Shown one piece after another: positions 54,323 to 56,182 of a stretch of 64,000 bases of DNA (position 1 is its first letter; every line of letters starts with the position of its first letter). Location: positions 62,001-126,000 of the forward strand of contig CALXLH010000003.1 of NCBI GenBank assembly GCA_944389145.1, in the 5' to 3' direction. Below the pieces are notes generated by a model. The model was not told the DNA's origin and made no database searches. It saw only the letters and a program-made list of their open reading frames with translations. Origin of the DNA: an uncultured Spirochaetaceae bacterium. Its GTDB lineage: Bacteria > Spirochaetota > Spirochaetia > Sphaerochaetales > Sphaerochaetaceae. The position numbers and the translations under genes were made by a program.

Positions 54323-55921
54323 TCATTCTGTTTGATCAGGAGGGGTTACCTCTGGATATAAACTGTCATCTGCAAGGATTTCCGCGAGGTTCCAGTTTTC
54401 ATAGATAGGTTTTTTCTCTATAGCGGTAAGAAGGTCTGCCTTCGACCAGTTATTACTAAAATCAGTTCCGAAGGTTCCATTTTCCTTATTATAGTAAACA
54501 GATTGATACATTGGCTCTAGTCTGGCCGCAAGATAAGAAAGCTCTTGGATTATAGTTTCTATGTTATTGATATCTATTGTAGCTACGTATTCTTCATATT
54601 TTACTTTTTCGATTTGTTCTGGTTTTATGGCTTTGTATGAGATGTAGCCTATTATATTCGTATCCGAATGGAACAGGGCTTGCATATGTGAGCAGGTCGT
54701 CTGGTCTTCGGTACCTCCCAATGCAGCATTATTACTTGAAGTAAAAAGTACATATGTGGATGTCTCGCCATCGAGAACATTATCCTGATTTTTTATTTTC
54801 GAACCTTTTGTAATGGCATAATAATCCATGTAGACTTCATTCCCGAGTCCATCATCCCCGACATGGAAATTTTTGAATCTGATAATCTGGTTGTAATCAA
54901 ACGTTTGATTATCTATGTCATATATGATTTCTACAGCAAGATCATTAGCTGTTCCTTTATATATGATTTTGCCATCTTCATTCTTGGATATTGTCAGGTT
55001 GATTTCTTGCCCGAATATAGTTTTATCAATTGATGATTCTGAAGTATTGCCAGAAAAACCTGTGATTGCAGGAAGGACCATATTATACATTAGCATAATA
55101 CCTTCCTGAGGGGCTTCTTCAGGGCCTTCTGCAGTGGATTTACTAAGCATATTTCTAGCAGTTGTTCCATCAAGAGAGGCTTCTATGAATGTCGGAATCG
55201 GGACTCCGGATGTTTCATCAGGATTTTCTTCGTCAGGAGGCGTTACCGGATCATCTCCACCTTCACCAGTTCCTGGGTTCTCTTCTTCCCCCGGAGGTGT
55301 AACAGTACCACCGCCACCACCGCCTGATGCACCACCACCTGCTTCATTACCTGATCCTGTCACAGCTGTTGCTTCTTCATCAGCTATCGTGATGGTTGCT
55401 GTAGAGGACTCTGGGAGGTTGTTGATCGTTACCTGTACGCTTGTCGTTGAGAGTACTCCATCGGTGATCGTTGCCTTGACTTCCGCTGTTGCGTTGGCAC
55501 TCTCTGGGATATCTATCGATACTGGTACAGGATTGCCGTTTCCTGATGATACCTCAAGCCTTGCCGTGGTTTTTGCGGAGTAGGTGGTTGCGGAGAATGA
55601 GGTTCCGTCCGTGGTTCCTGTGAATTCGAACTCAATGCTTCCTGCAGTTATCTTCAGGGAGCCGGAGGTGTAGCCATTGAATGTGGCTATGGCCTTAATG
55701 GATGCTTCCTCTGCGGCCTTTGCCTGAGGGTATTCGTACTTTACGTCGATACCATCCTTGCCGGAGAAGGCATCCTTAAGGATCGTCTCTACGTTGATTC
55801 CGTTCTTCACGGCATCGATATCTTCCTGAGATGGCGCAGGTGTTCCTGTGCTGTTGCTGCATGAGGAGAATGCAAACAGAATCAGCGCGATTGAAAGCAA
55901 TACGAGCGGTAGCTTCTTCAT
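54323..55921 (-). CDS. Large lipoprotein with Gly/Pro/Glu linker
   Basis: A 532-residue secreted lipoprotein. The type II signal peptide is followed by Cys21 in the lipobox FSSC. An N-terminal domain (about 25-190) reads like repeated Ig-like strands rich in Ser/Thr; a low-complexity linker (about 190-245: Gly runs, then TPPGEEENPGTGEGG) leads to a C-terminal domain of about 285 residues I do not recognise. The C-terminal half is AT-richer than the rest of the window. AAGGAG precedes ATG 55921. Its promoter contains a nine-G run, so expression is probably phase variable. Surface exposure is likely. Confidence 0.85.
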   Translation of the reverse strand: MKKLPLVLLSIALILFAFSSCSNSTGTPAPSQEDIDAVKNGINVETILKDAFSGKDGIDVKYEYPQAKAAEEASIKAIATFNGYTSGSLKITAGSIEFEFTGTTDGTSFSATTYSAKTTARLEVSSGNGNPVPVSIDIPESANATAEVKATITDGVLSTTSVQVTINNLPESSTATITIADEEATAVTGSGNEAGGGASGGGGGGTVTPPGEEENPGTGEGGDDPVTPPDEENPDETSGVPIPTFIEASLDGTTARNMLSKSTAEGPEEAPQEGIMLMYNMVLPAITGFSGNTSESSIDKTIFGQEINLTISKNEDGKIIYKGTANDLAVEIIYDIDNQTFDYNQIIRFKNFHVGDDGLGNEVYMDYYAITKGSKIKNQDNVLDGETSTYVLFTSSNNAALGGTEDQTTCSHMQALFHSDTNIIGYISYKAIKPEQIEKVKYEEYVATIDINNIETIIQELSYLAARLEPMYQSVYYNKENGTFGTDFSNNWSKADLLTAIEKKPIYENWNLAEILADDSLYPEVTPPDQTE

Positions 55922-55948
55922 ATGATGGATAACTCCTTGTTGGCAAAG

Positions 55949-55977
55949 AGTATACCCCCCCCCGTTGATATAATCAA
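55949..55977 (-). promoter_or_regulatory. Lipoprotein promoter with poly-G spacer (phase-variable)
   Basis: Minus-strand TTGATT (55972-55977), a spacer of exactly 17 bases ending in nine consecutive G (plus-strand C run 55955-55963), then TATACT (55949-55954). Gain or loss of a G would change the spacer from the optimal 17. Confidence 0.8.
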
Positions 55978-56023
55978 TATCGCAATGGATGAAATAGGGC
56001 CACCTTCCGATGGCCCCGATGGA

Positions 56024-56182
56024 TCAGCCCTCCTGGGAGAACTCTTCCTTTCCTGCTCCGCAAAGCGGGCATACCCAGTCCTCTGGTACGTCTTCCCACT
56101 TCGTTCCCGGTGCGATTCCGTTATCAGGATCGCCTGCTGCCTCGTCATAGACATAACCGCAGAGGTTGCATACATACTTCAT
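56024..56182 (-). CDS. Rubredoxin
   Basis: A 52-residue iron protein. The four iron ligands are Cys5/Cys8 (VCNLCGY) and Cys38/Cys41 (VCPLCGAGK), with the typical [12 protein letters not shown] between. It carries electrons in the cytoplasm, often to oxygen- or peroxide-detoxifying enzymes of anaerobes. ATG 56182 follows GGAGG; the frame open to 56245 is promoter sequence. An operator-like GATAA/TTATC array lies between the -10 box and the ribosome site. Confidence 0.97.

Follow-up and report, generated by a model that had tools for sequence, protein, structure and literature searches.

The locus lies in a 64 kb stretch of DNA (the window) from a genome of the Candidatus Ornithospirochaeta group, G000, which is assembled in 42 contigs. 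It consists of a lipoprotein gene with its promoter and, upstream on the same strand, a rubredoxin-like gene. The features, in the order in which they are read, are:

56024..56182, minus strand: rubredoxin-like gene of 52 aa with two CxxC pairs (from the sequence)
55996..56017, minus strand: terminator-like hairpin past the rubredoxin gene (-17.5 kcal/mol, z -2.4; weak U tail; missed by the consensus scan)
55972..55977, minus strand: -35 hexamer TTGATT (direct reading and promoter scan), aligning with the TTGACA, TTGACC or TTGACT of the homologous promoters L038, L040, L042-L044 and L048
55955..55971, minus strand: 17-base spacer, composed of ATATCAAC and G9 (GGGGGGGGG) (direct reading and promoter scan)
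55955..55963, minus strand: G9 tract (C9 on the plus strand), the proposed slippage site (run count; tract variation known class-wide)
55949..55954, minus strand: -10 hexamer TATACT (direct reading and promoter scan)
55933..55938, minus strand: ribosome binding site AAGGAG, with the ATG 11 nt downstream (from the sequence)
54323..55921, minus strand: lipoprotein gene of 532 aa, with a signal peptide and lipobox FSSC (Cys21), an N-terminal domain rich in beta structure that extends to about residue 185, a low-complexity Gly/Pro/Glu linker and a divergent C-terminal part

On the minus strand the sequence runs TTGATT ATATCAAC GGGGGGGGG TATACT CTTTGCCAAC AAGGAG TTATCCATCAT ATG, the nine G forming the end of the spacer and adjoining the -10, and 27 bases lie between the promoter and the start of the lipoprotein gene at 55921. 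The first-pass annotation had described TTGATT and TATACT at 17 bases with nine G beside the -10, which is exact; an independent promoter scan returned the same pair, with 9 of 12 consensus matches. It had also noticed no other nine-base homopolymer in a promoter of the window, and the G9 is in fact the sole homopolymer longer than six, of any base, within the 64 kb. The TTGATT of the window is a weaker -35 than the TTGACA typical of the promoter class described below. Because the hairpin 3' of the rubredoxin gene makes read-through less likely, the lipoprotein gene plausibly depends on the G9 promoter. Two ORFs of 85 and 98 aa that cross the tract were rejected as spurious frames, the rubredoxin-like and lipoprotein frames accounting for the region.

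The protein begins with MKKLPLVLLSIALILFAFSSC, a textbook lipoprotein signal, and the lipobox cysteine Cys21 is invariant across 10 aligned homologues. The protein is presumably exposed at the cell surface. Alignment shows that the homologues have in common the signal, an N-terminal domain of about 160 residues and a Pro/Glu-rich linker, beyond which they diverge. No Pfam family was found for the 532-aa lipoprotein. Its structural model had a mean pLDDT of 57, which is weak, and no Foldseek hit reached an E-value under 0.02, so that no fold is claimed; the sequences of solved structures gave no family either. A Pfam search of ten other tract-driven lipoproteins likewise gave nothing above the family cut-off. 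Two Pfam results hint at C-terminal parts of a surface type, namely a right-handed beta-helix match that is weak and falls short of the cut-off, and a GLUG repeat present in two of the homologues; function is claimed for none of them.

Besides the window copy, six homologues have poly-G promoters, with spacers of 16 (L048), 18 (L038), 19 (L040, L042 and L044) and 21 bases (L043, in which the tract is interrupted). In L032, the nearest homologue with 43% over the N-terminal part, the promoter is TTGACA-17-TATAGT and lacks a G tract, and in another, L034, only five G lie upstream. The tract is therefore not universal within the lipoprotein family and switching would not be conserved in every member; a fixed 17-base promoter and slippery ones stand side by side in one family.

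Pattern searches of the source genome were used to count G/C runs by exact length, giving 106 runs of six, 8 of seven, 4 of eight, 5 of nine and 5 of ten. This distribution is bimodal, the long runs forming a separate population. Ten runs of at least nine were seen, against 0.05 expected from the six-to-seven decay or 0.4 from a generous, conservative decay, and the 14 G tracts of 8-10 bases compare with about one expected from the run statistics. On the sense strand all 14 read as G. Ten occupy promoter positions, and lipoprotein genes, or copies of a lipoprotein promoter, account for nine of the ten: seven directly precede a lipoprotein start (the window locus, C4, C10, C13 twice, C14 and C22, with the spacers on C10 and C22 interrupted or over-long), and two lie at the ends of contigs C26 and C27, where the promoter is the same as on C13 and the genes are cut off just after it. 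The tenth, on C25, belongs to a promoter without a lipoprotein start. Three further tracts are situated in the 5' part of lipoprotein coding sequences (L006, G000:C5:34817; L019, G000:C25:23445; L029, G000:C37:28384). As assembled, the reading frame is out at those on C5 and C25, both G8, and maintained at that on C37, a G9; these coding tracts probably give the genome phase variation at the level of translation as well. A G9 tract (L014, G000:C22:16993) lies ahead of an ORF whose product has an export signal and no lipobox, and is the only one in G000 tied to neither a lipoprotein gene nor a lipoprotein-type promoter.

The same design, TTGACA, about 10 nt, G8-12 and TAG..T, recurs across the genus. 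The pattern TTGA-N8-13-G8-N0-4-TAnnnT gave 258 matches, a few counted twice owing to the variable gap, in 39 of 48 genomes, and a backward-read control gave 3. When a stricter pattern was searched against 84,980 species, 75 of 80 among the matches listed were Spirochaetaceae, Spirochaetales or Ca. Ornithospirochaeta, including Ca. Ornithospirochaeta stercoravium and O. stercoripullorum. Sixty loci from six genomes were checked downstream, and 55 had enough DNA 3' of the promoter; by inspection, 53 of these 55 have a lipoprotein start behind the promoter, mostly 20-40 nt past the start of the -10 (an automatic count of 54 holds one false positive, L242, and L277 is without a lipoprotein). The baseline in the window is one convincing lipoprotein among 59 gene-sized ORFs, or at most 5 of 59 by a loose test. 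A single genome may carry up to about a dozen loci with the common promoter design. Contigs often stop less than 100 nt after class promoters (G064, G004 and G019), and the lipoprotein repertoire is therefore probably under-counted in short-read assemblies.

Tract length was compared between copies. Of 16 within-genome pairs whose 66-80 flanking bases differ at no more than three positions, 9 differ in the tract, the largest gap being four G; in a partly overlapping set limited to two flank differences the figure is 7 of 10 pairs. Tract length also differs in 9 of 11 pairs with at least 60% protein identity. The pairs are non-independent and may include single-base assembly errors, since homopolymers in metagenomes can be off by one. 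L118 and L143, for example, have identical prefixes followed by G11 and G9, and L224 and L276, whose proteins are 89% identical, have G8 and G9. A change of length is among the commonest differences between copies, and the tract changes faster than its flanks, as measured between paralogues and related genes in collections that hold one genome per species and one allele of the window locus.

We consider it very likely that the G9 is a slippage-prone tract in the spacer of a lipoprotein promoter and drives phase variation of the porA and TP0126 type. Within the spacer of a promoter of apparent sigma-70 type the tract would be liable to slip in replication, a loss or gain of G would bring -35 and -10 closer together or further apart, and the lipoprotein gene would be transcribed more or less strongly from one cell to another. 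The window promoter would be one of a dispersed set of the same design, serving related lipoproteins that resemble one another in signal peptide or N-terminus and diverge in the rest, and a population would show varying combinations of coat lipoproteins. Slippage is the presumed cause of the length differences; it would affect transcription and would be of benefit to the cell. The prediction of a phase-variable lipoprotein promoter made in the first-pass annotation is supported by the near-exclusive association of the class with lipoprotein genes, by a tract that outpaces its flanks and by a design proven by experiment in porA and TP0126. There is no warrant for calling the lipoprotein a pathogen antigen, the relatives being bins from gut metagenomes, with chickens as the source of the named ones.

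Alternatively, the G tract could be a fixed structural element of the lipoprotein promoter class, whether for spacer geometry or as a regulator site, serving regulated expression without switching. The regularity of the spacer speaks for this. From TTGACA to TA, among 121 tracts of at least eight, 62 spacers are of 19 bases, 23 of 18, 10 of 20, 7 of 17 and 8 of 16. Prefix and tract compensate, a 10-nt prefix going with G9 and a 9-nt prefix with G10, interrupted tracts likewise cluster near 19, and a short motif, AAC/TAC(C), stands ahead of the tract in class promoters. Against a fixed element, however, tracts of anything between 8 and 12 bases occur where the flanks are the same or almost so, lengths differ between copies of nearly the same gene, and pure G8-10 is the most slippage-prone filler a spacer could have. 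Tracts of the same length also occur inside the coding part of lipoprotein genes, two of which are out of frame; promoter geometry would make no sense there. This alternative is held to be unlikely.

With a slippage-controlled promoter preferred, the spacer lengths bear on which state is common. In the same DNA, promoter-like pairs that lack G runs show a weak peak at 17. The spacer is mostly 15-16 in another spirochaete family, f24, and 17 at the window locus, against a class mode of 19. Either the optimum is shifted by poly-G DNA or most assembled copies are one or two slips off the optimum, and which of the two holds determines whether ON or OFF is the usual state. By analogy with the 17-nt optimum of TP0126, the window allele as assembled would be ON. 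Interrupted tracts such as GGGGTGGGGG are found at the same promoter position (L290-L300), four of them in genome G012, and are possibly locked promoters.

It is highly improbable that the tract mainly promotes recombination of lipoprotein 5' ends, by cassette exchange or gene conversion, with the effect on the promoter secondary. Class copies do have promoter, leader and signal peptide in common and differ in their bodies, and contig ends less than 100 nt past promoters are what near-identical repeats would be expected to produce. A duplicated promoter-leader family is nevertheless sufficient to explain such sharing and gives the G tracts no necessary role, and the window copy is without a close repeat in its own genome (one match only). 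Chance or an assembly artefact, whether as an unremarkable G-rich stretch or through a sequencing error in an assembly of 42 contigs where homopolymers are error-prone, is barely credible for this tract and is refuted for the class by the run-length excess, the recurrence in 39 of 48 genome assemblies, the near-exclusive lipoprotein link and the nearly empty reversed control.

Promoter poly-G switches in Neisseria and poly-G tracts at Treponema tpr genes, both invoked in the earlier annotation, are documented. In N. meningitidis porA a poly-G tract lies between -35 and -10, with 11G, 10G and 9G giving stepwise expression of the surface protein, and 10G was selected over 11G under antibody pressure (PMC3639595). 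In T. pallidum, tprE/G/J are transcribed only with at most 8 G, the tprL tract ranges from 7 to 11 G with 9 the usual length, and of 17 tracts examined 76% showed clear length variation (PMC7864442). For TP0126, an OmpW homologue, the same report places the poly-G between -35 and -10 and finds transcription best at a spacer of 17 (PMC7864442). Long G/C tracts have also been counted in several cultured treponemes (PMC8049484). TP0126 resembles the present case in being spirochaetal and in having a poly-G tract between -35 and -10 that sets the spacer, with an outer-membrane protein behind it. Unlike TP0126 and the tpr genes, the promoters described here have lipoprotein targets, a common design repeated up to about a dozen times in one genome and a modal spacer of 19, and belong to a different family and to uncultured gut bacteria. 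The porA promoter has the same placement of its poly-G, but porA is a single gene, and both organism and protein are unrelated.

As summarised in PMC10502178, the Vlp proteins of Mycoplasma hyorhinis form a surface lipoprotein family in which each gene has its own switching poly-A promoter (Citti and Wise 1995). The likeness is in having many lipoprotein genes, each with a homopolymer promoter, the Vlp coat being combinatorial; homology is not claimed. In contrast to the present set, the Vlp genes are clustered and have poly-A instead of a G tract, the proteins carry size-variable repeats and the organism is not a spirochaete.

Because the G runs form a set, nearly all in front of lipoprotein genes, an uncultured genus of gut spirochaetes probably uses DNA slippage to turn many of its coat proteins on and off. 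Rather more doubtful, though possible, is the full picture of a dispersed, genus-wide lipoprotein set under one slippage-controlled design, together with translational G tracts, that would give gut commensals a combinatorial random coat and, since poly-G alters spacer geometry, would work best near a 19-base spacer instead of the textbook 17. The open-access literature searched on Ornithospirochaeta, or on lipoprotein phase variation in Sphaerochaeta, does not describe the set, an absence that does not itself prove novelty, and the genus-wide lipoprotein promoter class appears to be a new instance of an already known mechanism. Homopolymer phase variation has mostly been studied in pathogens, and here a genus-wide set of coat lipoprotein promoters is found in uncultured gut spirochaetes. 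Its hundreds of natural promoters are a ready panel for measuring the effects of spacer length and poly-G on transcription. In metagenome strain analyses of these spirochaetes, tract lengths should be called and not dismissed as noise.

Of 112 spirochaete genera sampled, 16 have similar promoters, with most copies in the Ornithospirochaeta genus and in family f24. One f24 genome, consisting of a single contig (G220 C1, L281-L289), holds about nine such promoters, six of the nine ahead of lipoproteins. A phage-borne cassette was considered and rejected, the promoter pattern being without any match in 2.9 million viral contigs. L182 and L193 are related lipoprotein genes with similar promoters containing G11 and G10. 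At L134, which is from Streptococcus acidominimus, and at L161, genes for Streptococcus-type YSIRK surface proteins lie 120-200 nt behind a similar TTGACA-N10-G9/G10-TAGAAT.
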